Below, piece after piece: positions 5,218-60,894 of a DNA stretch of 64,000 nucleotides. Source of the DNA: a virus; the IMG/VR virus record IMGVR_UViG_3300036398_001591, positions 18,556 through 82,555 of that record; one strand, written 5' to 3'. Position 1 is the stretch's first letter. Each line of letters starts with the position of its first letter. A program made the position numbers and the translations under genes. The notes under the pieces are model-generated. The model did no database searches, was not told the origin of the DNA, and saw only the letters and a program-made list of their open reading frames with translations.

Positions 5218-5292
5218 TGGTCCGGCGTACAGGAATCGAACCCATATTCGGGGCTTAGAAGACCCCTGTATTATCCATTATACGAACGCCGG
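5218..5292 (-). tRNA. tRNA-Arg (anticodon TCT), separate from the cluster
   Basis: Acceptor CCGGCGT pairs with ACGCCGG, then A and CCA. Anticodon stem GGGGT/GCCCC encloses CTTCTAA, giving TCT (AGA). It lies between the 5298-5582 gene and rubrerythrin, so it is co-transcribed with protein genes. Confidence 0.92.
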
Positions 5293-11268: not shown

Positions 11269-12065
11269 TACATTTCTCCGACAAAGTTCGCAACGGCAGG
11301 CATGTCACCTTGAAAATGGTAAGTACCAATGTGTTGTGTACGCATCCATGGGCATAGCCAGATTTGACCACCCATATTACGCCACCATTGGCAGAACATG
11401 TAATCTTCGGAGAGATAACGCTCCGACTTTGGATCAATCACGGTATCAAAGTATGCATGAATGTAGCGTGAACCATCAAAGTGTGCTTGACCAACGTGGT
11501 CTGGCTTGTACTTGAGATGTGGATATTGTTCTGCAAATTTAGGGAACACTTCACGCTTAATCATCATAAAACCGGTACCGATTTCCATGACTTCAAGTGG
11601 TTCAGACACAGAGAATTGTGCGGTACCCTTAACTGGGTTGAAAACATAATCACCAGTAACTTTTTCGAGGACATGTGGTTCAATGTCGGGATGCATTTGA
11701 ACTGCCTTCTTGACGTTACCCCATTTGATAGCCTTCTTAGGATAAGGACCACCAATAACATCTTTATCTAGTGCCAACAATGCAATCACATCTTGTGGAT
11801 TGAAGTTGATATCAGAATCGATAAACAACATATGTGTACAATCAGAACGATTTAGGAATTCATCCACCAAATAGTTCCTTGCACGTGTAATCAAAGACTC
11901 ATTGAACAAGAATGAGAACTTGACTTCGATACCATATTGAATACACATACCTTGTAGATCAAGACATGCCTTCATATAGAGTCCATGGTTTTGCCCACCA
12001 TACATCGGTGTGGCTACAAACAACTTATGTTTTCTAAGTTCGTCTGTTTTAATTTGAATTTCCAT
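11268..12065 (-). CDS. GT-A fold glycosyltransferase
   Basis: 265 residues. ATPMYGGQ near the N-terminus, then LFIDSDINF with the metal-binding DSD at 83-85, and a later SEDYMFCQWW segment acting as the acceptor-side acidic motif. Related proteins are common in T4-like cyanophages. No membrane segment. Placed among replication genes, it may modify phage DNA bases or host glycans; the acceptor is unknown. ATG 12065 follows GGAGCACAA, inside the tail of the terminator at 12079. Confidence 0.8.
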   Translation of the reverse strand: MEIQIKTDELRKHKLFVATPMYGGQNHGLYMKACLDLQGMCIQYGIEVKFSFLFNESLITRARNYLVDEFLNRSDCTHMLFIDSDINFNPQDVIALLALDKDVIGGPYPKKAIKWGNVKKAVQMHPDIEPHVLEKVTGDYVFNPVKGTAQFSVSEPLEVMEIGTGFMMIKREVFPKFAEQYPHLKYKPDHVGQAHFDGSRYIHAYFDTVIDPKSERYLSEDYMFCQWWRNMGGQIWLCPWMRTQHIGTYHFQGDMPAVANFVGEM

Positions 12066-41246: not shown

Positions 41247-42302
41247 TTACTCTTTAATTGCTTCTTCTGTTGGTTTAGGAAAAAGTTTTGTTAATTCGGC
41301 AGAAACTTCTTCAAAAGTGTCTTCCCATTTTCCAAATTTTTGCTGCCTAAAAACCCTTGTCGTATCTTCATACCATGGACTATGTTCACCGCCATGGGCC
41401 CAAACGTGATATGGTAAAAGTGGAACAATAACCCAAGTTGGTTTACCCATAGCAGAAGCAATGTGTGCGATGCTTGTACATGAAGTAATAACCAAATCCA
41501 AATTCTGAATACAAGCTACAGTATCTTCCCAAGATATAATCAAGTGTTGCAGATCGGAAACCTCATCAGGTAATTCTCTCAAGTCGGTGTCTCTCTGTAA
41601 ACTATAGAACTGTATATGTTCATTATTTTTATATAGGTTGATTAATTTTTCTGCTGGGAATACGCGAAACTGTTGGTGTTCAAAAAGTGGGCTGCCACTC
41701 CAACGAATACCAATTTTTATTTGCTTTTTGGTATTTAAAATTGATTTCCAAATGTCAATACTTTCATTTTTAGGAAAAATGTATGGCTGACTAGGCAACG
41801 TTTCAAACGTATGACCAAATAACCAACTACAGCTAAATCCAGGAATCCAATAGTCGTGAAAAGTGGAACTTACTTCATCGAGTGTTATGCACTTTTGAGT
41901 GCCGGGAACTCTATTGAATATGGGATGTAGTGATTTTTCACAACAAAGAATTGCTATACCACCTCTTTTCCAAACTTCAGTGGCAAATCTGGCATAGATG
42001 ATTTGATCTCCAAAACCACACTCCATATTAAGTATGACTGTTTTTCCGGTTAAATCATCTTGGCCATTCCAAATAGGTTTACTTGTGTTGAGTTTGCCTG
42101 AACCGTATACTTTAAGTCCTCTGCCATATTCAAGGCATTGAAAGCCTTCTTGCAATTTACCTTGATTAATTAAAAACCAACCTCGGTTAAATTTTGCTCT
42201 CGGATCTGTAGGATCATTTGCTTCCATTTGCTCTGCAAGTTTCCAGCCTTCTGCAAACCTGCCACGTATCATCAAATTCAGTTGTTGATCTATCAAATGC
42301 AT
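41247..42302 (-). CDS. TPR-domain glycosyltransferase (GT9-like)
   Basis: 351 residues. The N-terminal 60 form TPR-type helices (RFAEGWKLAEQ; RGWFLINQGKLQEGFQCLE). NMECGFGDQIIYARFA is the heptosyltransferase-like loop, and LVITSCTSIAHIASAMGKPTWV is the GT9 donor-site motif. Such TPR-GT9 fusions occur in bacterial flagellin or O-antigen glycosylation loci. It starts the cassette and is preceded by a late promoter octamer. Confidence 0.85.
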   Translation of the reverse strand: MHLIDQQLNLMIRGRFAEGWKLAEQMEANDPTDPRAKFNRGWFLINQGKLQEGFQCLEYGRGLKVYGSGKLNTSKPIWNGQDDLTGKTVILNMECGFGDQIIYARFATEVWKRGGIAILCCEKSLHPIFNRVPGTQKCITLDEVSSTFHDYWIPGFSCSWLFGHTFETLPSQPYIFPKNESIDIWKSILNTKKQIKIGIRWSGSPLFEHQQFRVFPAEKLINLYKNNEHIQFYSLQRDTDLRELPDEVSDLQHLIISWEDTVACIQNLDLVITSCTSIAHIASAMGKPTWVIVPLLPYHVWAHGGEHSPWYEDTTRVFRQQKFGKWEDTFEEVSAELTKLFPKPTEEAIKE

Positions 42303-42330: not shown

Positions 42331-42338
42331 TATTTATC
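42331..42338 (-). promoter_or_regulatory. Candidate late promoter of the glycan cassette
   Basis: Minus strand GATAAATA followed by TTTT, one base from the T4 late consensus, between the RCC1 gene stop (42334) and the ATG at 42302. It suggests late expression of the modification enzymes. Confidence 0.6.
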
Positions 42339-45300
42339 CTTTTAAAACTGCTGTTGTGTGAGTTCCACCAGCCGATACTGCGGTCCATGAACTGGAACCA
42401 ATTTGCACCGGAGAAGATCTGGAGGTAGTTGTTCCATCACCCAATCGACCTTGATAGTTTTGGCCCCAAGTGAATAACGTACCACCAGACCTAATTGCGG
42501 CAGTGTGAGCATTACCGGCCGCCACCACAGTCCATGAACTGGAACCAATTTGAACTGGAGAAGATTTGTTGACTGTTGTTCCATCACCTAATCGACCATA
42601 ATTTCCACTACCCCATGTGAACAAACGTCCATCTGATCTAATTGCGGCAGTATGGGAGTCGCCAATTGATACTGCGGTCCATGAACTGGAACCAATTTGA
42701 ACTGGAGAAGATTTGACGACTGTTGTTCCATCACCTAATTGACCTAAAGTGTTTCTACCCCAAATGAATAATAATCCATCAGATCTGATTGCGGCAACGT
42801 GTCTACCTATGAAGCCACTATTCACTGCGGTCCATGAACTGGAACCAATTTGCACTGGAGAAGATTTGGCGACTGTTGTTCCATCACCTAATTGACCATA
42901 AGTTCCATTACCCCATGTGAACAAATATCCATCAGATCTAATTGCGGCTGTGCTATTTTGTCCAGCCGATACTGCGGTCCATGAACTGGAACCAATTTGA
43001 ACTGGAGAAGATCTGTCGCTTGTTGTTCCATCGCCTAATCGACCACTATTTCCAGCACCCCATGCAAATAATAATCCATCAGATCTGATTGCGACAGCGT
43101 GAGTTGCACCAGCCGCCAGCGCAGTCCATGAACTGGAACCAATTTGAACTGGAGAAGATCTGTCGATCGTTGTTCCATCGCCTAATCGACCATAAAAGTT
43201 TCTACCCCAAGTGAATAATCTTCCATCAGATCTAATTGCAATGCTGTGTTGCTCGCCATTACCTACTGCCGTCCATGAACTAGATCCTGATTGTCGTGGA
43301 GAAAATTCCGATGATGGTATAATGATATTGCCACCAACTAACGTTAATGTGTTGACGGCTGTAAAAGTGGTTATACCAATACCTGCTTGTCCCGCCGAGT
43401 TGGTCCCGATTGCATATAAACGATTATTCGCCGCAATCACATTTGTGTGTGAACTAGACGATACCGCAGTCCATGAACTGGAACCAATTTGAACTGGAGA
43501 TGAAGAACCTGCCAAACCGCCGCTACCCCATCCAAATAATTTACCATCAGAATTAATTGCGGCAACGTTCGATTCACCAGTCGATACCGCAGTCCATGAA
43601 CTGGAACCAATTTGAACTGGAGAAGATCTAGCGGATGCTCGTGTTCCGTCACCTAATTGTCCTGTGACATTACTGAAACCAAAATTGCTACCCCATGTGA
43701 ACAAGTATCCATCAGATCTGATTGCTGTCATAAATTGGTCGCCAGCCGAGACCGCAGTCCATGAACTGGAACCAATTTGAATCGGTGAGGACCTGTCAAA
43801 CAAAATACCTTGGCCACCCACTACGATGGGTGATGCCTCAGTAAAACTGACAGGAGAAGTTCTTGAATTGCCTAGAGTACCATATGGGTTTGTACCCCAA
43901 ATGAATAATATTCCATCAGATCTGATTGCCGAAGTGTGAGTAAAAGAACTTGCGGGCACCGCAGTCCAAGAACTGGAACCAATTTGTACCGGAGAAGATC
44001 TGGAGGTAGTTGTTCCGTCACCTAATTGAGAGTTAATGTTTCTACCCCAAGAAAATAACTTACCATCGGATCTAATCGCCAAACTGACTTGGCCATTACT
44101 GGTCGATACCGCAGTCCATGAACTGGAACCAATTTGCACTGGAGAAGATCTGTTGAGTGTCGATGAATTACCTAATTGACCTTGTTGACCAAGACCCCAA
44201 CTGAATAATATTCCATCAGATCTAATTGCAAGATTGGTGTAGCCGATTTGATTTGATACCGCAGTCCATGAACTGGAACCAATTTGAACTGGAGAAGATT
44301 TGGCGACTGTTGTTCCATCACCTAATTGACCTTGGGCTCCGGCACCCCAAGTGAATAATAATCCATCAGATCTGATTGCGACATTGAATGCCGCACCAGC
44401 CTGCACCGCAGTCCATGAACTGGAACCAATTTGCACTGGAGAAGATTTGGCGACTGTTGTTCCATCGCCTAATGTGCCGGTAGTTCCTATACCCCATGTG
44501 AATAATAATCCATCAGATCTGATTGCGGCAGTGTGAGCTTGACCGGCCGCTACCGCAGTCCATGAACTGGAACCAATTTGAACTGGAGAAGATTTGTTGA
44601 CTGTTGTTCCATCACCTAATCTACCATTTGTTCCAGCACCCCAAGCAAACAAACGTCCATCTGATCTAATTGCGGCAGTGTGTGAATTACTAGCCGATAC
44701 TGCGGTCCATGAACTGGAACCAATTTGCACCGGAGAAGATCTGGAGGTAGTTGTTCCATCACCCAATCGACCTTGATAGTTTCTACCCCAAGTGAATAAT
44801 AATCCATCAGATCTGATTGCGGCAGTGTGAGTTGCACCAGTCGATACCGCAGTCCAACTAAATATAGTTGATGCGGGTCCTTCAGCTTCAGTGGTAAGTT
44901 GGCCAAAAAAATTGCTACCCCATGCAAATAATAATCCATCAGACCTAATTGCGGCAGTATTCAAAAAGCCGCCAATATCCACCGCAGTCCATGAACTGGA
45001 ACCAATTTGTACTGGAGAAGATTTGGAGACTGTTGTTCCATCACCTAATTGACCTGAAGTGTTTCTACCCCAAAGAAATAATAATCCATCAGACCTAATT
45101 GCGGCCGTATTGACGCCGCCAGCCGATACTGCGGTCCATGAACTGGAACCAATTTGTACTGGAGAAGATTTGCCAATAGTTGTGTTATCGCCTAATTGAC
45201 CATAGTTGTTTCTACCCCAAAGAAATAATCTTCCATCAGATCTAATTGCAGCCGAAAGATAAGTACCTGCCGATACTGCGGTCCATGAACTGGAACCAAT

Positions 45301-45747
45301 TTGTACTGGAGAGGCTATAAATGGAAGTGTGCTACCCTCACCTAATTGGCCTAGGTTGTTTCTACCCCAAGTGAATAATAATCCATCAGATCTAATTGCG
45401 ACAGTGTGTGAATTTCCACCCGCAACCTTTGTCCAATTATAAACATCTGTAGGTCCAGTGAAAACACCCAATTGATAAAATGTGTTATTACCCCAGACAT
45501 ATAAAAAACCTGGTCCTGGTGGGCCTATTGTACCTATGGCCGCAAACATTGTGCCAATATCCACACCACCACTTTGAAAACTTGTGGTACCAAAAGCTGT
45601 GCCACCATTAGCTACACTGTAGTAATAGTTAGAAATGTCGGTGCCACCGACTGTGTAATTCACATCGGCTCTTTTTGAAGACCCGCCTATTGGTTCAAAG
45701 AGCGTATCTAGGTCAGCACCGGTAACTCTAAAACTTGTGGTTGGCAT
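42334..45747 (-). CDS. RCC1-repeat beta-propeller virion protein
   Basis: 1137 residues. The N-terminal 75 hold three copies of a short motif (VTGADLDTLFEPIG, VGGTDISNYY, SGGVDIGTMFAAIG). From residue 81 to the end are RCC1 repeats of about 50 residues: W-T-A-V-S-A-G...A-I-R-S-D-G-x-L-F-x-W-G-x-N..G-Q-L-G-D-G-T-T..S-S-P-V-Q-I-G-S-S-S. Twenty complete units plus one split between the N-terminal FLYVWGNNTFYQLG and C-terminal WTAVSAGGTHTTAVLKG give 21 blades, as for three seven-bladed propellers. It lies next to tail fibre genes, so a fibre tip or host-binding protein is likely. No catalytic motif. Confidence 0.88.
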   Translation of the reverse strand: MPTTSFRVTGADLDTLFEPIGGSSKRADVNYTVGGTDISNYYYSVANGGTAFGTTSFQSGGVDIGTMFAAIGTIGPPGPGFLYVWGNNTFYQLGVFTGPTDVYNWTKVAGGNSHTVAIRSDGLLFTWGRNNLGQLGEGSTLPFIASPVQIGSSSWTAVSAGTYLSAAIRSDGRLFLWGRNNYGQLGDNTTIGKSSPVQIGSSSWTAVSAGGVNTAAIRSDGLLFLWGRNTSGQLGDGTTVSKSSPVQIGSSSWTAVDIGGFLNTAAIRSDGLLFAWGSNFFGQLTTEAEGPASTIFSWTAVSTGATHTAAIRSDGLLFTWGRNYQGRLGDGTTTSRSSPVQIGSSSWTAVSASNSHTAAIRSDGRLFAWGAGTNGRLGDGTTVNKSSPVQIGSSSWTAVAAGQAHTAAIRSDGLLFTWGIGTTGTLGDGTTVAKSSPVQIGSSSWTAVQAGAAFNVAIRSDGLLFTWGAGAQGQLGDGTTVAKSSPVQIGSSSWTAVSNQIGYTNLAIRSDGILFSWGLGQQGQLGNSSTLNRSSPVQIGSSSWTAVSTSNGQVSLAIRSDGKLFSWGRNINSQLGDGTTTSRSSPVQIGSSSWTAVPASSFTHTSAIRSDGILFIWGTNPYGTLGNSRTSPVSFTEASPIVVGGQGILFDRSSPIQIGSSSWTAVSAGDQFMTAIRSDGYLFTWGSNFGFSNVTGQLGDGTRASARSSPVQIGSSSWTAVSTGESNVAAINSDGKLFGWGSGGLAGSSSPVQIGSSSWTAVSSSSHTNVIAANNRLYAIGTNSAGQAGIGITTFTAVNTLTLVGGNIIIPSSEFSPRQSGSSSWTAVGNGEQHSIAIRSDGRLFTWGRNFYGRLGDGTTIDRSSPVQIGSSSWTALAAGATHAVAIRSDGLLFAWGAGNSGRLGDGTTSDRSSPVQIGSSSWTAVSAGQNSTAAIRSDGYLFTWGNGTYGQLGDGTTVAKSSPVQIGSSSWTAVNSGFIGRHVAAIRSDGLLFIWGRNTLGQLGDGTTVVKSSPVQIGSSSWTAVSIGDSHTAAIRSDGRLFTWGSGNYGRLGDGTTVNKSSPVQIGSSSWTVVAAGNAHTAAIRSGGTLFTWGQNYQGRLGDGTTTSRSSPVQIGSSSWTAVSAGGTHTTAVLKG
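42351..45410 (-). repeat. Coding tandem repeats of the RCC1 gene (about 150 bp unit)
   Basis: About 20 copies of a unit containing the almost invariant block AGTCCATGAACTGGAACCAA with its flanks (plus-strand reading; some copies have GGTCCATG). The DNA of this block is far better conserved than the rest of the unit, which implies recent expansion or gene conversion. Confidence 0.9.
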
Positions 45748-45756
45748 TTAAAATTA

Positions 45757-46044
45757 TTATTCTTGTGTAGGTTCTTCAGCCGGTGGTTGAGGAATTTCTA
45801 ATATATCTCTGTGTTCATACACTTCACCATTTTCTACGGTGTAATTTAGGTAATCCGACATTTTATGAGTTGCTGGATTGAATTCTGTTGTATCTCTAAT
45901 GATCTTAACGAATTCGTTTTCCCTCATAAAGTTTTCGTCAACTTTACATTTCAAGTCGAAATTATCATTGCCATTCCAATTTTTAGGTAACAGGTCATAA
46001 ACACCTTTTATTTCACCATCAATTAAATTTGCATATACTGTCAT
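45757..46044 (-). CDS. Small tail-fibre-associated protein
   Basis: 95 residues. [20 protein letters not shown] at the start then [19 protein letters not shown]; similar small proteins sit next to fibre genes in T4-like marine phages and may be fibre assembly or attachment factors. The C-terminus is Pro/Glu-rich ([11 protein letters not shown]). Starts with a 4-base overlap into the preceding collagen-like gene. Confidence 0.6.
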
Positions 46045-48806
46045 TTTTTTCCTCCTAATGAATCAGTGTTATCTAATAAAATATTTATCTTCTTTTCCAA
46101 CTCTTTTATGGAGCCTTGTTGTTCTTTAATTGCTTCAATTAGTAAACCAATAATGCTGTCATATGAAAGTGACATAGTACCGTTTTCATTTGTGTTTACA
46201 ATTTCTGGAAGTATTTTTTCCACTTCTTGAGCAATAACACCTATTGATTTATTTCCGTTGTCTTTCCATGTAAAACTTACACCTCTCATCTGCAACACTT
46301 TATACATAGCATCTTCTAACGTATGTATATTTTCTTTAGTATTTACGTCAGACAGTGTGTTGAAAATTGTGGCATTCAGTGTGCCTGTCGAAGGATTAAA
46401 ATACAATTTCGTACTGCTTGCTTCAGCAGTTTGATTCGATCCAACTCCAGCAACAAATACTGGGTAATGGTTGGCGTTAGTTGTGCTTTCTTCTGCCGCA
46501 TTAATTGTCGTAGAAGGTCCTGCTGGTCCGATTGGTCCGATTGGTCCAATGGGTCCTTGTGGTCCAGCGTTGCCTATTGGACCAATGGGTCCTTGTGGTC
46601 CAGTATTACCGATGGGTCCAATAGGTCCGATTGGTCCAATGGGTCCTTGTGGTCCAGCGTTGCCTATTGGACCAATGGGTCCTTGTGGTCCAGTATTACC
46701 GATGGGTCCAATAGGTCCGATTGGTCCAATGGGTCCTTGTGGTCCAGCGTTACCAATTGGTCCGATTGGACCTTGTGGTCCTGTTGCACCTCTTTGACCG
46801 GCAGCAGTAATTGTCCACGATGAAGCCGAAGTTGTACCAATATTAAAATCTGCCGCAATAGCAAAAGTTGTTCCACCAGTTATAGTTACTGTGCCCTCAA
46901 AGAAGTTTGCTACCGTGTTAACGGCACGAACTCTCGAACCGGTAATAAATGCGCCTTGTGTATTTGTTGTGAGCGTGATAGTACCGGTTGAGGATGGAAC
47001 CGCAGTAGTTGTTGACGTTACACCGTCAAAACCTATTCCGATTGGGCCGATAGGCCCTTGTGGTCCGATGGGTCCAATAGGTCCGATGGGTCCTTGTGGC
47101 CCAATGGGTCCAATAGGTCCGATTGGCCCAATAGGTCCGATGGGTCCTTGTGGCCCAATGGGTCCAATAGGTCCGATTGGTCCAATAGGTCCGATGGGTC
47201 CTTGTGGCCCAATGGGTCCAATAGGTCCGATTGGTCCAATAGGTCCGATGGGTCCTTGTGGCCCAATGGGTCCGATTGGTCCGATAGGTCCTTGTGGTCC
47301 GATTGGTCCAATAGGTCCGATAGGTCCAATAGGTCCTTGTGGTCCAGTTAAACCGATAGGTCCGATTGGTCCTTGTGGCCCAATGGGTCCAATTGGTCCT
47401 TGTGGTCCAGTTAAACCGATTGGTCCAATAGGTCCTTGTGGTCCAGTTAAACCGATGGGTCCAATGGGTCCAATCGGCCCAATTGGTCCTTGTGGTCCAG
47501 TTAAACCGATGGGTCCAATGGGTCCTTGTGGTCCAGTTAAACCGATGGGTCCAATGGGTCCTTGCGGCCCAATAGGTCCAATGGGTCCAATTGGACCTTG
47601 TGGTCCTGTTGCACCTCTTTGACCAGCAATTGTTACAGTCCAAGAAGATGCTGTTGTTGTACCTAAGTTGAAATCTGCGGCAATAGCAAATGATGTGCCG
47701 GTGATTGTGACAACACCTTCAAAAAAGTTTGCAGTTGTGTTTGTTGCTCTTACACGATTTCCTGTTACAAAATCATGGAAAGTTGTGTTAACAATTAATG
47801 TAATTGTTCCTGAGCCTGCTGGGGTAGCAGATGAGGTTGAGGTTACTTGTGAACCTGGTCCTGTTGCACCCGTTGGTCCAGTGTTGCCGATTGGTCCAAT
47901 AGGTCCAATTGGTCCTTGTGGTCCTGTATTACCAATAGGTCCAATTGGTCCTTGTGGTCCTGTATTACCAATAGGTCCAATAGGTCCGATGGGTCCAATA
48001 GGTCCTTGTGGTCCGGTATTACCGATTGGTCCAATAGGTCCTTGTGGCCCAATCGGTCCAATAGGTCCTTGTGGCCCAATCGGTCCAATGGGTCCAATGG
48101 GTCCTTGTGGTCCAGTGTTGCCGATGGGTCCAATAGGTCCTTGTGGTCCTGTAGGACCAATAGGTCCGATTGGTCCAATAGGTCCTTGTGGTCCGATTGG
48201 TCCAATAGGTCCGATAGGTCCGATAGGTCCGATAGGTCCGATAGGTCCAATAGGTCCTTGTGGCCCAATTGGTCCAATGGGTCCTTGTGGTCCAGTTGGT
48301 CCAATATTACCTACAATATCAAACTGAAGCGAACACGGTTCATTCGTATCCAACGGGTTTTCTATACCTGAAAGATATGTTATTCCAAATTGAACATATC
48401 CTGTTTGTGCTGTTACACTATTAATTTGATAAGTAAGAAGTTCGAGAGATCCAAATATTCTTAAATATGCTTTGGGTGTTCCCGTTGAATTGTTAATAGC
48501 CAGTAATGCGGCACGAACATTATCTGATCCACCTGTTAAATCATCAATGTACAACTCTGTAGCTGATGATTGTGTGGCATTATTCAGTCTAAACAAACCA
48601 GTGCCAGGATCCACATTTGTTGTGCTAGAGGAGAAAGTGTAGGGATATCCCGCCGTTTGCCCAGTGGCTCCGGTACTTCCAATGGGTCCTTGTGGACCAG
48701 TTGGACCAAAAGTTCCGGCACCAACCCATTGACCGTTAGCCGCAATAACAAACGTATTGCCTACCGTTAAGCCATTTTTGACTACGAATGTATTTGCTGA
48801 TGCCAA
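46041..48806 (-). CDS. Collagen-like tail fibre with S74 chaperone
   Basis: 921 residues from a TTG at 48806, placed six bases after GGGGAGAG. Short N-terminal head, a globular domain (about 54-166), then Gly-Pro-Gln/Ile collagen triplets interrupted by two homologous beta-domains ([19 protein letters not shown] and [20 protein letters not shown]). The C-terminal 104 residues are an intramolecular chaperone of the peptidase S74 family: S819 in [10 protein letters not shown] is the predicted autocleavage site and [15 protein letters not shown] the conserved helix. The trimer would form a long rod, with the chaperone removed after folding. Confidence 0.92.
46082..46089 (-). promoter_or_regulatory. 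Candidate late promoter before the 95-residue gene
   Basis: Minus strand GATAAATA followed by TTTT inside the last codons of the collagen-like gene, about 38 bases before the ATG at 46044. It would serve the 95-residue protein and the RCC1 gene. Confidence 0.5.
46515..48305 (-). repeat. Collagen-type (GPxGPx) coding repeats in three blocks
   Basis: Blocks at about 46515-46795, 47035-47620 and 47850-48305 consist of 9-base and 18-base units coding Gly-Pro-Ile and Gly-Pro-Gln. Unit boundaries such as [10 protein letters not shown] repeat almost exactly, a substrate for slipped-strand or recombinational length change. Confidence 0.92.
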
Positions 48807-52563: not shown

Positions 52564-55500
52564 TTAATAACCAGTCATAATTGCTATTGGACTGAAGGGG
52601 TATCTCTTTGTTTGTGCTACTGTTATCTGATTTGGTGCAAGAACTCTAATTGTGCAATCCATGTTGGTTTGTGGTGCCGAAGAAAACGATATTTGAGAAA
52701 CGCTTCCTGTGTTTGCTACACTGTAACCTTTTGTGAACGCTAAGAAGTTCGAACCAAAAACTATATCATATGTATTTATGAATGGAGGAATCGACATACC
52801 TCCCAATTGAACTAGAATTTGCTCAGACGCCAAAATATTTACTACATTTGAATCTGCATAGAGATTAAATGTTCTCATAATACCATCAAAATATGCCGAA
52901 ATATCATCAATTACTGTGATGTTTGTTGTTGCGGTGTTTGCAACTGCATATGCGGCATTCGCTGTTGCATAGCCAGCATTCGCGGTAGCATAGCCAGCAT
53001 TTGCTGTAGAATATCCAGCATTAGCGGTTGCATAAGCCGCATTCGCCATGTTGCTGACACTCCAACCCAAACGACCTCCGATTGGAAGACCAATTTGTTT
53101 ATAAGCATCTGCTGCCGCAAATGATGACCAGTTTTGGAAAGTATTCTCAGTCGATACAATAATACCATCGGTATTACCATTCGCGGAGATTACCCATTGA
53201 CCACCAGTAATACCAAATTCATTCCAACGAAGGTATGTATTCGATTGATTGCCACGGTTGATAACCAACTGGTTGTTTGAAGTTGGTGTAATTGCTGTCG
53301 TTAGACCAGCACTCATCGTAATAACGTTAGTCTGAACGTCTAAGTTTGCAGATGAAATTGTTGAGAATGAACCTTGAACTTGTAGATTACCAGTAATGAT
53401 TACGTTACCGGTAATAAAACCTTCACCATTAACATCAAGTGTATAACGTGGATCACTTCTATTAACACCCAGTCTTGCACGTTCTGCATCATAGAGCATG
53501 ACACCAGTATTACCTGTTGCTATACCAACAGTTAAGTTACCATTTGCAGTTACTGTTCCAGCATAAAGGTTTGCGGTTGCACCAGTAAGATACAACGGAC
53601 CAGTCATTGTGTCACCGGTCTTAGATACTTTTAGTGCGGCGTTTCCTGTAATTTCACCGCGAAGTGTTGCTACGTTTGTAGAAACAATACTGTTTGTGTA
53701 TAGATTTGTTGATGATGCATTAGCCGTAATTCTGGAATTAATTATCACGTTGGCTGTAGCCATGTTTGCCGTGATATAAGAATCGGTATTCAAACGAAGT
53801 GTGGAAGCATTACCAGTGATGGATGAATTTAGTGTATTTACGTTTGATGTTACTTCACCACGAATTGTTGCCAAGTTCGCGGCAATCATCGAAACACTCA
53901 ATGCATTGGCTGATGCCGCATTTGTAGAAATTTCACCACGAAGTGTTGCTACGTTAGCTGAAACTGTGCTATTGATTACGGAGTTAGTTGATACTGCATT
54001 AGCAGTAATAGAACCATTAATTGTTGATACGTTAGATGAAATCTCACCACGAAGTGTGGCCACATTGGCTGATATGTTTGTATTAATTACAGAGTTGGCC
54101 GAAGCCGCATTTGCTGTAATGGAACCATTGATTGTGGCCACGTTAGCAGTAATCTCACCACGAAGTGTTGCTACATTAGCTGAAATGTTGGTATTGATTA
54201 CTGAATTTGCCGAAACGGCATTAGCAGTAATAGAACCATTGATTGTGGCTACGTTAGCCGTTATTCTACCATCAGTATATTGATTAGCGGCAGTATTGTT
54301 GGCTGTAATCTCACCACGGAGAGTTGCTACGTTAGCAGAAATTTCACCACGAAGTGTCGTGGTATTAGCCGCAATTGAACCGTTAATTGTTGATACATTC
54401 GAGGTAATAGAACCATTTAAGGCTGCAACGTTGCCTGATATTTCCCCACGTAGTGTGGCTACGTTAGCGGAGATGTTGGTATTGATTACAGAGTTAGCAC
54501 TTGCCGCATTGGCTGTTATTTCTCCACGAAGTGTGGCAACGTTGGATGTTATTGAACCATTTAACGTGGCTACATTGGATGTAATTGAACCGTTTATTGT
54601 AGCAACGTTAGCCGATATGTTGGTGTTAATGACCGAGTTGGCTGAAGTGGCATTGGCAGTTATTTCTCCACGAAGTGTGGCTACATTGGCGGATATGTTG
54701 GTGTTAATTACAGAATTAGCACTTGCCGCATTGGCAGTTATTTCACCGCGGAGTGTGGCAACGTTGGATGCTATTGAACCATTTATTGTGACTACATTGG
54801 ATGTAATTGAACCATTTATTGTAGCAACGTTACCTGATATTTCACCTCGGAGTGTGGCTACGTTAGCTGTTATTTTTTGATCCATCGCAAGGTTTGCAGA
54901 TAAAGACTGCGTTGCAATAGATGAGTTAATTGTTGTTACATTAGATGATATTTCACCACGAAGTATATCAACGTTGGCCGATAGTACAGAATTTACATAA
55001 GAATTAGATGAAGTTGCATTCGATGTAATCTCACCACGTAGTGTTGCTACGTTAGATGTAATTGAGCCGTTTATTGTTGCTACGTTAGCGGAGATGTTGG
55101 TGTTGATTACGGAGTTAGCACTTGCGGCATTGGCTGTAATTGAACCGTTAATTGTAGATACGTTAGATGATATTTCACCACGAAGTGTAGCAACGTTAGC
55201 CGAGATGTTAGTATTAATTACAGAATTTGCAGATGCCGCATTGGCTGTAATAGAGCCATTTATTGTGGCCACGTTAGCGGATATTCTAGTATTAATTACA
55301 GAATTTGCAGATGCCGCATTGGATGTAATCTCACCACGGAGAGTCGCAACGTTAGCCGATATATTGGTGTTGATGACCGAGTTAGCTGATGCCGCATTGG
55401 CTGTAATAGAGCCATTTATTGTGGCTACGTTAGATGATATTTCACCACGAAGTGTAGCAACGTTAGCCGATATATTGGTGTTGATGACCGAATTGGCTGA

Positions 55501-56931
55501 AGCCGCATTGGCTGTAATAGAGCCATTTATTGTGGCTACGTTAGCGGATATTCTAGTATTAATTACAGAATTTGCAGATGCCGCATTGGCCGTAATTGAG
55601 CCGTTGATTGTGGCTACGTTAGATGATATCTCACCTCTTAATGTAGCAACGTTAGCCGAAATGTTAGTATTAATAACTGAGTTGGCTGAAGCCGCATTAG
55701 CGGTAATAGAACCATTTATTGTGGCTACGTTGCTGGATATTTCACCTCTTAATGTAGCAACGTTAGCCGATATATTGGTGTTGATAACAGAATTTGCGGA
55801 TGCCGCATTGGCCGTAATTTCACCTCTTAATGTAGCAACGTTTGCGGATATGTTAGTATTAATAACGGCATTAGCACTTGCGGCATTAGCTGTAATCTCG
55901 CCTCTTAATGTAGCAACGTTGGCCGAAATTCTGGTGTTGATAATAGAATTGGCAGAAAGTTGAACATCATTAATTGTGTTGTTTATCGTTTGAACATTTG
56001 ACGATATTTCAGCGCGGAGGGATTCTACATTGGAACTAATATATGAATTTGTATTAGTTATTGATGTGTTTACTGTAACATAAGCCGCATTTGCCGTAGC
56101 ATAGCCAGCATTTGCGGTGTCATAAGATGCATTAGCTGTGGCATAGCCAGCGTTTGATGTAGCATAAGATGCATTTGACGTAGCGTAGGACGCATTGGCT
56201 GTGGCATAGCCAGCGTTTGCCGTAGCATAAGATGCATTGGCTGTAACATAAGATGCATTTGCCGTAGCGTAGGACGCATTCGCCGTGGCATAGGACGCAT
56301 TTGAAGTTGTATAACCAGCATTTGCGGTAGCATAAGATGCATTGGCTGTATCATAAGACGCATTTGCCGTGGCATAGGATGCATTAGCTTGGTTAAATGA
56401 TGGCTGAATTTGTGGTGTTACATTATTGGCTGCCTCATATGCCGCATTGGCTTGTGCATATGCACCATTTGCATAACTATCAATCGCAATCTTTTCGTAA
56501 TAAAAGCCAGTATTTGTTAAGAGCCAAGATTTATCAACTTCCGACCAAATAAGGGATGTATTTGGTTCATCACCTCTAGCAATTTCAATACCTGCATTTG
56601 AAATTGGAGTTCCATATGCATTTGCATTCAGTGTAATAATATTGTCGTTGACTAAAAGTATCTGTGTGTTTGTATAAACTGTGTTACCATTAACGACAAA
56701 ATCACCATTAATGGTAACACTACCACCAATCGTGCCGCCTGAAGAATCAAATTTTAAATTTGCTGTATCGTATGCAGAATTAGCGTGTGTGTATACGGTG
56801 TTAATTTGTGCATAAACCGGAATCAACCCTTGACCGGCCGGAACATATTGTATGTTTCTAACCTTTGTTGGGTTTTGTTGGCTACTTGATATTTTTACTG
56901 AGCCAATTGTTATTGTATTACCTGTCGCCAT
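52564..56931 (-). CDS. Giant repeat fibre protein (1455 residues)
   Basis: N-terminal 1-160 is a beta-domain (GGSVTINGDFVVNGNTVYTN, IEIARGDEPNTSLIW). Residues about 184-288 are 15 heptads of the type ASYATAN. Then about 700 residues repeat NISANVATLRGEISSNVATI and ITANAASANSVINT, an alternating helical trimer pattern. A second beta-domain (GNVIITGNLQVQGSF), five more heptads and a C-terminal globular domain (MRTFNLYADSN) close it. It is presumably a trimeric long tail fibre shaft and tip. All repeats are in the same frame. Confidence 0.82.
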   Translation of the reverse strand: MATGNTITIGSVKISSSQQNPTKVRNIQYVPAGQGLIPVYAQINTVYTHANSAYDTANLKFDSSGGTIGGSVTINGDFVVNGNTVYTNTQILLVNDNIITLNANAYGTPISNAGIEIARGDEPNTSLIWSEVDKSWLLTNTGFYYEKIAIDSYANGAYAQANAAYEAANNVTPQIQPSFNQANASYATANASYDTANASYATANAGYTTSNASYATANASYATANASYVTANASYATANAGYATANASYATSNASYATSNAGYATANASYDTANAGYATANAAYVTVNTSITNTNSYISSNVESLRAEISSNVQTINNTINDVQLSANSIINTRISANVATLRGEITANAASANAVINTNISANVATLRGEITANAASANSVINTNISANVATLRGEISSNVATINGSITANAASANSVINTNISANVATLRGEISSNVATINGSITANAASANSVINTRISANVATINGSITANAASANSVINTNISANVATLRGEISSNVATINGSITANAASANSVINTNISANVATLRGEITSNAASANSVINTRISANVATINGSITANAASANSVINTNISANVATLRGEISSNVSTINGSITANAASANSVINTNISANVATINGSITSNVATLRGEITSNATSSNSYVNSVLSANVDILRGEISSNVTTINSSIATQSLSANLAMDQKITANVATLRGEISGNVATINGSITSNVVTINGSIASNVATLRGEITANAASANSVINTNISANVATLRGEITANATSANSVINTNISANVATINGSITSNVATLNGSITSNVATLRGEITANAASANSVINTNISANVATLRGEISGNVAALNGSITSNVSTINGSIAANTTTLRGEISANVATLRGEITANNTAANQYTDGRITANVATINGSITANAVSANSVINTNISANVATLRGEITANVATINGSITANAASANSVINTNISANVATLRGEISSNVSTINGSITANAVSTNSVINSTVSANVATLRGEISTNAASANALSVSMIAANLATIRGEVTSNVNTLNSSITGNASTLRLNTDSYITANMATANVIINSRITANASSTNLYTNSIVSTNVATLRGEITGNAALKVSKTGDTMTGPLYLTGATANLYAGTVTANGNLTVGIATGNTGVMLYDAERARLGVNRSDPRYTLDVNGEGFITGNVIITGNLQVQGSFSTISSANLDVQTNVITMSAGLTTAITPTSNNQLVINRGNQSNTYLRWNEFGITGGQWVISANGNTDGIIVSTENTFQNWSSFAAADAYKQIGLPIGGRLGWSVSNMANAAYATANAGYSTANAGYATANAGYATANAAYAVANTATTNITVIDDISAYFDGIMRTFNLYADSNVVNILASEQILVQLGGMSIPPFINTYDIVFGSNFLAFTKGYSVANTGSVSQISFSSAPQTNMDCTIRVLAPNQITVAQTKRYPFSPIAIMTGY
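56068..56382 (-). repeat. 21-bp coding minisatellite (ASYATAN heptads)
   Basis: Fifteen tandem 21-bp units coding A-(S/G)-Y-(A/D/V/T)-T-(A/S)-N. The codon-level variation between units is small. A shorter array of five similar units is at about 52940-53050. Confidence 0.9.
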
Positions 56932-57282
56932 TTATAACATACCTGCTGTTTTTGTTACTTGCGGTAAAACATTAACAATTCCTTCCAAAACTCTCACCCT
57001 AATATTTTGAGCCGATGTAATATACACATCATAAACGTATCTTCCCGCATAAATATTTGCCGTATTTGCCGAAGTCATACTCATGGTTATTGTTCCTTCA
57101 GAACCACCCGTTTCAATTAAGAATGTTGCTGATGCATTTGATGAGTAATAAGACTTTCTCATTTGAGAAGTTGCTGTATAACTCACCAAATTCATAGGCG
57201 TGCCAGACACATCATCAAGAGTGATTGTAGTATTAAAGTCTGCGCCTTGTTCTAAGAATAGTTCTGAATAACCTGCTGGCAT
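56932..57282 (-). CDS. BppU N-terminal-like baseplate/fibre adaptor
   Basis: 116 residues. SELFLEQGADFNTTITLDD, PMNLVSYTATSQMRKSYYSS, GTITMSMTSANTANIYAG and the closing RVRVLEGIVNVLPQVT follow the fold of the N-terminal domain of phage baseplate upper proteins, which joins receptor-binding fibres to the baseplate. Its location between two large fibre genes fits an adaptor role. Confidence 0.7.
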   Translation of the reverse strand: MPAGYSELFLEQGADFNTTITLDDVSGTPMNLVSYTATSQMRKSYYSSNASATFLIETGGSEGTITMSMTSANTANIYAGRYVYDVYITSAQNIRVRVLEGIVNVLPQVTKTAGML

Positions 57283-57308
57283 AACGTTAGTTTCCTTTTA
57301 ATATATTA

Positions 57309-57316
57309 TATTTATT
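57309..57316 (-). promoter_or_regulatory. Candidate late promoter in the fibre block
   Basis: Minus strand AATAAATA followed by TAAT, 27 bases before the ATG at 57282 and in the short gap after the S74 fibre gene; one base from consensus. Confidence 0.55.
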
Positions 57317-57339
57317 GGCTTCGGGAACTTAACGGTAAC

Positions 57340-60300
57340 TTAAGGGTTTTTTTTCTTCAGTTCTTTTATTTCATTCGACAATTCTTTAACCGCTTCAATG
57401 AGAACGCCAACTATGTTACCATATGCAACTGACAAATATTCGGATTCATTTTCTTTATGCACAACTTCCGGTAAAACCTTTTGAATTTCTTGTGCAATAA
57501 CACCAACACCAGTCCTACCTTCCCGGTCAAATCTTACTCCTCTCATATTTTCGATACACAGGAGAGCATTTTCAATAGTTTGAATATTAGTTTTTAATCT
57601 TTCATCTGAATATGCTGTTATATTACCAGGAGCAGTTAAGTCTCCTGTGCTAGGATTGAATGTGAATGCTGTTGCTGTTGTTCTAACACTCGGTGTTTGA
57701 TTGGAGCCTGCACCCGCAATAAACACTGGATAAAATGTAGCATTTGTTGTTGTATCTGTTGCATTAATTGCAGTTGATGGTCCAATTGGTCCAATCGGTC
57801 CAATGGGTCCGATAGGTCCTTGTGGACCAAGTGGTCCGATGGGTCCAATTGGTCCGATAGGTCCAATCGGTCCGATAGGTCCTTGTGGACCTGTTGGTCC
57901 TGTTAAACCAATTGGTCCGATGGGTCCTTGTGGACCTGTTGGTCCTGTTGGTCCTGCTAGTCCAATTGGTCCGATAGGTCCAATCGGTCCGATAGGTCCT
58001 TGTGGACCTGTTGGTCCAGCTAAACCAATTGGTCCAATAGGTCCTTGTGGTCCTGTGTTGCCTATTGGTCCAATCGGTCCGATAGGTCCTTGTGGACCTG
58101 TTGGTCCAGCTAAACCAATTGGTCCAATAGGTCCTTGTGGTCCAGTTGGGCCAGCTAAACCAATCGGTCCAATAGGTCCTTGTGGTCCTGTTGGTCCAGT
58201 TAAACCAATTGGTCCAATAGGTCCTTGTGGTCCAATTGGTCCAATAGGTCCTTGTGGTCCAATTGGTCCGATAGGTCCAATAGGTCCTTGTGGTCCCGAT
58301 GGTCCAGCTTGACCTGCTCTGGTGAATTGTATCATCACCAAATCACCGTTGGTAAATGAACCTACACCAGAAACGTATGTGAGTGCAACAGTTCTGTAAC
58401 CTGTTGAGTTGGTTACAGTGCCTGTTGCATATACTGCATATTTGGTTGTTGGTGCACCAAATACGGAAAGTCTAATGTATCCTTTAGTTGCACCGTTTGC
58501 TTGACCCCATTCAGTAGTAATTGCAGAAATATCATTACCATATGTGTCAAGGTCATCGAAATAACCAGCAGTTGCAGATCCAGGAACAGCATTGAGCCTA
58601 AAGAAACCTGCACCAGGATCAGAAGCTGTAGTTGTTGTTGAATATTGTTGTGCGACACCAAGAACTGCACCAGAATTCAATACGTTAGCAGAAACTTTTG
58701 CGTTTACATCCAAACGCATCGCATTGATTTGATTAGCTGTAGCGGCTAGTGTTGTGCTTGTGCTTGTGTTCGAGTCATTCAACTGAACAATACCAGCATT
58801 GTTTGTATTTGCTACATACTTTTCAGTAACGATTGTGTAGTAAGTGTTTTGTTCTGCACCTGCGGCACCATTTATGCCACGAATTTTCCATTGTTTGTCT
58901 GCGTTTTCAAACTGAATGTATGCATTAGGTGTGAATGTTGCATTTGTATTTTCACCACGATTGATACCAAAACGTCCAGATTGTGATGCAGTAATTGGTG
59001 TTGAGCCATATAAAGAAAATTCATTCGAATTATAAACTGTACCACCTTCAATAACAAAATTACCCCTAACAGTAAAATCTTTACCAGCAATGATAGAATT
59101 GTTTGCAAAAATATTAGTTGCATTTATAGACGGTGTGTAAATCTCCGTATTAGCTGTCAAGAACCTTGTATTGATATTATCAACAACAGAAATAACTTGT
59201 ACATTCGCAGACTGTAAATTAGCAATTCCGTTGGAGGTTAATCTGTTTGTGTATATGTGTGTGACTGCTGAAATTGAACCAGCATTCAATGTGTTTGCAT
59301 TAGCAACACCGAAAATGTTAGCGGAACCACCAGACAATACTGTATTAGCAGTAATTGTTCCGCCAACTAGACTTGTGTTGGCAATTATCGTGGCAATTCT
59401 AGCAGAACCCGCATCAATACCATTGATTACGTTGGCAGAACCACCGGACAATATTGTATTAGCAGTTAAAGTACCACCAACTAAACTTGTATTGGCTATG
59501 ATTGTGTTGATTCTAGCGGAGCCAGCATCGATGCCATTGATTACATTGGCTGAACCGCCGGACAATACAGTATTAGCCGTTAAAGTACCACCAACCAAAG
59601 ATGTATTAGCAACAAGAATACCAATTCTAGCCGAACCCGCATCAATACCATTAATTACATTGGCTGAACCAACGTTTAGTTGGGTGTTGGCGGTTAAAGT
59701 GCCACCAACCAAGGATGTATTGGCTATGATTGTGTTGATTCTAGCCGAACCCGCATCAATACCATTAATTACATTGGCTGAACCACCAGACAATACTGTG
59801 TTGGCAGTTAGAGTACCACCAACCAAGGATGTGTTGGCTATGATTGTCGCAATTCTAGCAGAGCCAGCATCAATCCCGTTGATTACGTTAGCTGAACCAA
59901 CGTTTAGTTGGGTGTTGGCGGTTAGAGTACCACCAACCAAAGATGTGTTGGCAACAAGAATACCAATTCTAGCAGTGCTTGCATCAATCCCGTTGATTAC
60001 GTTAGCTGAACCAACGTTTAGTTGGGTGTTGGCAGTTAGAGTACCACCAACCAAGGATGTGTTGGCTATGATTGTCGCAATTCTAGCAGTGCTTGCATCA
60101 ATCCCGTTGATTACGTTAGCTGAACCAACGTTTAGTTGGGTGTTGGCGGTTAAAGTACCACCAACTAAACTTGTGTTGGCAATTATCGTGGCAATTCTAG
60201 CGGAGCCTGCATCAAGTAAACCAACAATGTTAGCTGTGCTGGTATTTAACTGTGTATTGGCTGTAATTGTGCCACCGACCAAACTTGTGTTGGCAATTAC

Positions 60301-60894
60301 TGTGGCAATTCTGGCTGAACCAGCATCTAATAGACCAACAACGTTAGCAAATGCGGCATTTATTGCACCATTTGCTGTAAGTGTTGTGGCAAATGTCGTT
60401 GTTGTGTGTGCTAATGGTGTTATGATCCAAGTGTTGGATGTTAAGTTTGCAACTCTTGTATTACCACCAACAACTAAATTGTTTGCAAGTGTTGTGTTAC
60501 CATTAAGGGTAGTATTATTTGCAACATAAAGGCTAGGGCCACCTGCATTGTTTAGACCTGTACCGAGAATTTGTAGATTTGCAATGTTCGCCACACCTGC
60601 AACATTAAGTCCAAGACCTATTGTATTTGCCGCAAAAATTGTGCCTTGAGAAACTGTTAAGTTATTTTGAATAGTTGCAGAAGAACCTGTACCAGTAACT
60701 TGAAAGGAACCTTGAACGATTGCATCATTCGCAACTTGCAAACCAGTTCCGGCGGAACTTACAATGAAAGTGCCGGTATTTTTGGTATAATTGTTTGCAC
60801 CAATATCATTGGTTTCCGCCAATACCCTATTGGTTGTAGTTACCCAATCACCAAATGTGTTGGCATAGTTTAGTGGTGTAATTTGATTAGCCAT
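57340..60894 (-). CDS. Repeat fibre with collagen stalk and S74 chaperone (1184 residues)
   Basis: N-terminal beta-domains, then about ten repeats of [20 protein letters not shown] plus [18 protein letters not shown] (33-36 residues each), then a beta-domain ([19 protein letters not shown]), a collagen-like stalk of [10 protein letters not shown] triplets, and a C-terminal S74 chaperone of 90 residues with S1096 in [10 protein letters not shown] and [14 protein letters not shown]. It is a paralogue in architecture of the 921-residue fibre, sharing the globular domain before the collagen stalk. Likely a trimeric side or long tail fibre. Confidence 0.9.
57780..58310 (-). repeat. Collagen-type coding repeats in the 1184-residue fibre
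   Basis: Gly-Pro-Gln, Gly-Pro-Ile and Gly-Leu-x triplets built from nearly identical 9-base units, with recurring [15 protein letters not shown] blocks. Similar to but distinct in triplet mix from the array at 46515-48305. Confidence 0.9.
59300..60350 (-). repeat. Long coding repeats (about 105 bp) in the 1184-residue fibre
   Basis: About ten units containing codons for [13 protein letters not shown] and ANVINGIDA. Neighbouring units are up to nearly identical over their whole length, pointing to recent tandem duplication. Confidence 0.88.

Follow-up and report, generated by a model that had tools for sequence, protein, structure and literature searches.

Seven-bladed rings very probably nested one within another in a 21-blade RCC1 protein of a T4-like phage

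The size of a propeller is normally set by the closure of a single ring, and a host domain usually receives one insert, of a kind unlike itself. RCC1, UVR8, RPGR and HERC1/HERC2 share the repeat family considered here (PF00415, PF25390), with a seven-bladed ring and split-blade closure. In HERC proteins the RCC1-like domains (RLDs) follow one another as separate units and are not inserted into each other; the three RLDs in the HERC2 chain were solved as separate constructs. Ran exchange, as performed by RCC1 proper, is not expected of a phage protein, and we know of no Ran in bacteria. The chain of DDB1 also passes between propellers before completing them. DDB1 folds 21 repeats of one chain into three propellers (PMC3938054); it differs from the present protein in being WD40-like, eukaryotic and fixed at three propellers, without open-ended variable nesting. 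Identity with the DDB1/CPSF-A triple propeller was rejected because the repeats described below are of RCC1 and not CPSF-A type, the number 21 being the only common feature.

Homologous repeats occur in phage RCC1 proteins of phrog_4219 (W70_237-239, GAP32 gp1, phAPEC6, S-SRM01 gp335/337/344 and BUCT-ZZ01), which come from tailed phages and some of which have been detected in virions, namely those of coliphage W70 (PMC11370258) and of GAP32 (PMC5259590). Those counted differ from the present protein in being single propellers (about 7 blades) or in having 14 blades without the bracket connectors defined below. In S-SRM01, too, RCC1 has a tail-fibre gene beside it and a sulfotransferase nearby. 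Phage tail-fibre adhesins that have S74 chaperone neighbours share the location, a modular N-terminus and a variable distal part, but, unlike anything indicated for the RCC1 protein, are trimeric fibres. The fold family is thus known already; recursive nesting of propellers is, to our knowledge, undescribed, and no description of it was found in a limited search of the open-access literature.

The window, i.e. the whole stretch of 64,000 nucleotides analysed, belongs to a viral record of 82.6 kb. The source virus is assigned to the T4-like phages of marine type; its portal is about 52-56% identical to cyanophage gp20, and its major capsid protein 62-63% identical to those of Methylophilales phage Melnitz, Pelagibacter phages Mosig and HTVC008M, and Synechococcus phage S-SKS1. 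Fifteen phage tRNA genes are clustered at 17-2121, and a tRNA-Arg gene lies at 5218-5292.

A single ORF from ATG to stop on the minus strand (42334..45747) encodes a protein of 1137 aa, identified as an RCC1 protein of 21 blades by RCC1 profiles and core count. Residues 1-80 (45508..45747, minus strand) are an N-terminal module, and the remainder is RCC1 repeat up to the final residue. Matches above the curated cut-offs were obtained over the repeated units with PF00415 (E=3.6e-186), PF13540 (E=4e-120) and the RLD profile PF25390 (E=1.3e-241), and the E-values of PF00415 and PF25390 argue against a chance array. The best match among PHROG families was phrog_4219, to which the W70 proteins belong, and the best solved match was UVR8 (sequence E 4e-65). 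The protein contains no cysteines. Strands of the regular blades are almost invariant, and variation is concentrated in the loop after WG, the TTVxK loop and the two variable residues of SAGxxHT; the last of these sites corresponds to the GWRHT motif, which forms the interaction face of UVR8.

Blade units were delimited by cutting in front of each (S/N)WT strand, which gave 20 complete units (residues 105-1120); the 24-residue start and 17-residue end of the array make up one shared blade, for a total of 21. A position-specific scan for the LFxWG core gave 21 again. PF00415 marked 16 stretches in the protein search and 19 in the six-frame search, the HMM alone undercounting since its scores are low for the first half-blade and for degenerate blades. 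Core-to-core gaps of 42, 44, 40, 68, 55 and 67 residues were found amid regular gaps of 49-50, and these irregular gaps are informative rather than noise. The count of 20 complete blades and one split between the chain ends made in the first-pass annotation was borne out by the units and the core scan. The repeat-HMM count proposed there was run and upheld the family but not the number, and the supposed repeated units held in count but not in uniformity, given the six irregular gaps.

All neighbours of the gene described here are likewise on the minus strand. Upstream lie a collagen-repeat tail fibre with a Peptidase_S74 (endosialidase-type) chaperone domain (46041..48806) and a 95-aa protein (45757..46044), the latter directly upstream of RCC1 in all relatives whose contig covers the site and matching no known family. 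Downstream, and conserved beside RCC1, are a 351-aa protein (41247..42302), which matched nothing in Pfam, NCBIfam or PDB profiles and is distantly similar to a gene annotated as TibC glycosyltransferase and to TPR proteins, and a sulfotransferase (PF00685; 40408..41214). This order is the usual one in relatives. The 351-aa and sulfotransferase genes follow RCC1 in nearly all of them, and are near RCC1 in S-SRM01 and L009 too; in the seven-bladed L016/L055 they are missing directly downstream, and a sulfotransferase lies upstream. Speculatively, these two proteins may modify the Ser-rich RCC1 blades. Matches to the NfeD and Ivy families were discarded as low-complexity noise. The S74-type tail fibres at 46041-48806 and 57340-60894 both carry long collagen-like GPx arrays; the former differs in much of its length between the window and the related virus L051, with a C-terminal chaperone region 98.7% identical. 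Large proteins with many tandem repeats are encoded at 52564-60894 (78- and 111-bp repeats in 52564-56931, 114-bp repeats in 57340-60894).

With respect to function, the window was compared with L051. Identity is mostly 94-98% for the neighbouring genes and 95% for the N-terminal module but drops to about 61% for the blades, whose number changes from 21 to 35. Laminin_G_3 (LamG, lectin-like) domains are inserted in the RCC1 arrays of L022 and L033. Synteny, blade turnover, LamG insertions, the lack of cysteines and the virion-borne RCC1 proteins of W70 and GAP32 favour a surface adhesin, a role which we regard as reasonably likely. The virion would most likely carry the protein on its tail or tail-fibre side, as a rapidly changing adhesin that binds the host surface, probably its glycans; receptor or glycan binding, as first annotated, is plausible in the tail-fibre neighbourhood, the features just listed being indirect support. 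The N-terminal module is the probable attachment part. A role inside the head or in organising DNA, which has been proposed from the RCC1 annotation for phAPEC6 and related phages (PMC7247149, PMC11370258), would agree with the occurrence of RCC1 proteins in virions and with a mildly positive net charge (63 K+R versus 52 D+E). It is nevertheless unlikely: the gene lies downstream of an S74 tail fibre in relatives, the LamG insertions are lectin-like, the blades turn over amid conserved flanks as a surface part would, and the published proposal derives from the eukaryotic name and not from a test.

To read the architecture, a connector was defined as the stretch that follows the LFxWG core of a blade and runs up to the next W strand. 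Regular connectors have 25 residues and hold the strand SSPVQIG. "Opener" connectors (13-20 residues) are without an SPVQIG strand and end like TDVYSW, and "closer" connectors (36-47 residues) hold the strand twice, e.g. SSPVQVGNN..LSPVQIGSSSW. Openers were read as opening brackets and closers as closing brackets. Gap length alone was dropped as the opener criterion in favour of the presence or absence of the SP strand, since the 40-residue gap after blade 14 is short yet retains SSPVQIG. Special connectors were found after blades 1, 5, 12 and 15 and none after 7 or 14. The resulting parse, A BBBB CCCCCCC BBB AAAAAA, gives seven blades in each of three rings (7/7/7), the inner propeller C consisting of blades 6-12, the middle propeller B of 2-5 and 13-15, and the outer propeller A of 1 and 16-21, so that inserted blades stand between host parts summing to seven. 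Were the brackets placed at random, all-seven nesting would arise with an exact chance of 1.75e-3.

In order along the protein (all on the minus strand), unit cutting and connectors place the half of blade 1 belonging to A, FLYVWGNNTFYQLG, at 45466..45507, predicted to close with the C-terminal WTAVSAGGTHTTAVLKG. The opener after blade 1 (NNTFYQLGVFTGPTDVYN, without an SPVQIG strand) was assigned from the connector classes to 45436..45489 and is followed by the first part of B, blades 2-5 (44917..45435, bracket parse). After the opener behind blade 5 (SNFFGQLTTEAEGPASTIFS; 44857..44916), the parse places C as a contiguous run of blades 6-12 (43816..44856). The closer after blade 12 (43762..43893) has two SP-strand copies, SPIVVGG and SSPIQIG, and leads into the second part of B, blades 13-15 (43330..43791). 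The closer after blade 15 (LTLVGGNIIIPSSEFSPRQSG; 43276..43404), whose first copy is degenerate, leads into the second part of A, blades 16-21 with the C-terminal half blade (42337..43305).

Nesting of seven-bladed rings in this protein is considered highly likely. As a joint explanation, three closed seven-bladed propellers nested in sequence, acting as a tail-side adhesin, probably for glycans, are favoured with good though lesser confidence. The outer propeller would begin at the N-terminus and break off after its first half-blade, where a second whole propeller would be inserted; four blades into that one, a third would follow. The rings would then be completed in turn, the C-terminal strand closing the outer ring with the N-terminal strand. 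Each insertion would take the place of the host-blade loop that joins the LFxWG and SPVQIG strands, the inserted propeller starting at a W strand and finishing at an SPVxxG strand. An inserted ring would fit into one such loop because the ends of its W and SP strands should be adjacent in the closed ring, a few residues apart like those of any pair of consecutive blades, an adjacency that we infer from the order of the repeats. The blade count, the bracket rule and its recurrence are observed; nesting of the rings in space is what they suggest. Three seven-bladed propellers, as first annotated, are thus supported by the 7/7/7 parse and by relatives with 7, 21, 28, 35, 42 or 49 blades. The velcro-like closure of the chain ends claimed with them is supported, by sequence, for the outer propeller alone (blades 1 and 16-21). 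The implied simple row of 1-7, 8-14 and 15-21 is not supported, the special connectors after blades 1, 5, 12 and 15 reading as nested insertions.

Structure prediction was performed with AlphaFold. The whole protein as a single sequence without alignment reached a pLDDT of 42, and beta-helix fold matches of that model were discarded as chance matches. Full-length multiple alignments were also discarded, being misregistered by whole blades. Residues 1-829 were predicted from six sequences that share a 4+7+3 layout and were aligned in blade register, which gave an RCC1-like model of low confidence, with an overall pLDDT of 45 and values up to 75 in inner blades. With this low-confidence partial model, the best Foldseek matches were UVR8/RCC1 (also HERC2 and RPGR), with E about 5e-22 and TM about 0.55 on target length.

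IMG/VR was searched with the N-terminal module, which gave eight and later ten records (L011-L018, L058/L059); in all records sharing the module, the RCC1 array lies directly behind it. No relative of the module was found in a scan of bacterial genomes. By core count, the window protein, L014 and L018 have 21 blades, L015 has 28, L012, L013 and L017 have 35, and L059 has 42; L016 shares the module and has exactly 7 blades and no brackets. RCC1 genes without the module mostly have 7 or 14 blades (L009, L019, L020, L027, L030, L040, L042 and L043). Blade number is quantised in sevens, apart from the exceptions given below. The bracket rule gave all-seven rings in seven relatives (L012, L013, L014, L015a, L017, L018 and L059), and host rings split as 1+6, 4+3, 5+2, 3+4, 2+5, 1+4+2, 1+2+4 or 1+3+3, each summing to seven. 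L070 and L075, whose N-terminus is not this module, were retrieved after the rule had been fixed, and it was applied to them unchanged: the 42 blades of L070 gave six rings of seven (chance 2.2e-7) and the 49 of L075 seven rings of seven (chance 1.2e-8), with insertions both side by side and nested. In the strict parse, 52 of 54 rings were seven-bladed (12 proteins, L050 and L058 set aside), an agreement that is not fully independent as the relatives are homologous. The maximum parsed was seven rings and six nesting levels, L059 being nested six rings deep. L022, L025, L033, L063, L066, L076 and L086 fall outside the strict parse owing to inserted domains or divergent blades.

Against this background, three propellers in a plain row, with the irregular connectors as unrelated loop variation, are improbable. 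A row would also yield a multiple of seven, several propellers per chain are found in HERC2 and DDB1, and row-type proteins appear to exist: each of the three 14-blade genes of L027 has its sole long connector (+7 to +9) exactly after blade 7. L009 and L019, with 14 blades and no bracket connectors, fit row and nesting alike. In the 21-blade protein, however, blades 7 and 14, which a row should mark, are unmarked, and the special connectors pair at distances 7 and 14, as they also do in relatives where their positions differ; the chance of all-seven nesting by random placement, given above, is far lower still in the relatives. Very probably, then, the three propellers do not lie side by side along the chain. 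Somewhat less probable again is an open superhelix or a set of larger rings, with the sevens arising because a DNA unit of seven blades, special connectors included, was duplicated in tandem. Duplication has clearly built the gene, which contains 147-bp and 300-bp tandem arrays as well as exact repeats of up to 91 bp, but copying a unit keeps distances and would not force the split parts of a host ring to total seven.

Under the preferred reading of nested closed rings, further insertions would raise the number of propellers while closure would hold each at seven, and extra propellers would provide extra binding faces. The wider proposal, recursive insertion of closed seven-bladed propellers with no fixed limit as an expandable, fast-evolving phage adhesin, is put forward with only slightly more confidence than doubt. 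The same fold seems to have been repeatedly inserted into itself, the seven-blade constraint being legible in sequence as balanced brackets. This would provide a clear natural test of the limits that ring closure sets on repeat-protein evolution. It would also allow the architecture of long propeller proteins to be read where no structure exists, and it points to a candidate mechanism for enlarging and reshuffling a phage surface-binding protein with its fold kept intact.

Two proteins depart from seven. The rings of L054b have 7, 7 and 6 blades, and the six-bladed one contains an exact 72-bp repeat whose copies are one blade apart, which makes a collapsed or deleted blade likely. The strict reading of L073 is 7, 14, 7 and 7; its blades 20-29 need a post hoc reading, in which odd linkers that flank blades 20-26 exactly point to a fifth ring of seven, inserted between blades. 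L050 (34 blades) and L058 (46 blades) are unbalanced versions of the L051 (35) and L059 (42) viruses, probably through assembly errors. It is very improbable that short-read assembly of so repetitive a gene created the blade numbers and brackets as artefacts, for although these two pairs disagree and the window gene has the long exact repeats noted above, assembly errors are expected to break sevens and not to generate them, and L017/L056, whose five-propeller reading is unlikely to be artefactual in having no exact internal repeat >32 bp, and L018 (none >38 bp) obey the rule exactly.

L022:2-15951 encodes a giant RCC1 protein of >3,840 aa, cut off at the contig start, with several LamG-like domains inserted; its reading frame breaks near 11,500, and the RCC1 repeats continue in a different frame. 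The incomplete protein has 4-blade openings and 3-blade closings in a succession that agrees with the bracket rule, and the long series of three-blade closings would imply very deep nesting. In L054:1993-9697, one virus carries in tandem two nested RCC1 genes that differ from each other, one of 28 and one of 20 blades. Several separate RCC1 genes are the alternative to one long chain in other phages: L027, L030, L040, L042 and L043 have two to four single- or double-propeller genes each, often adjacent.
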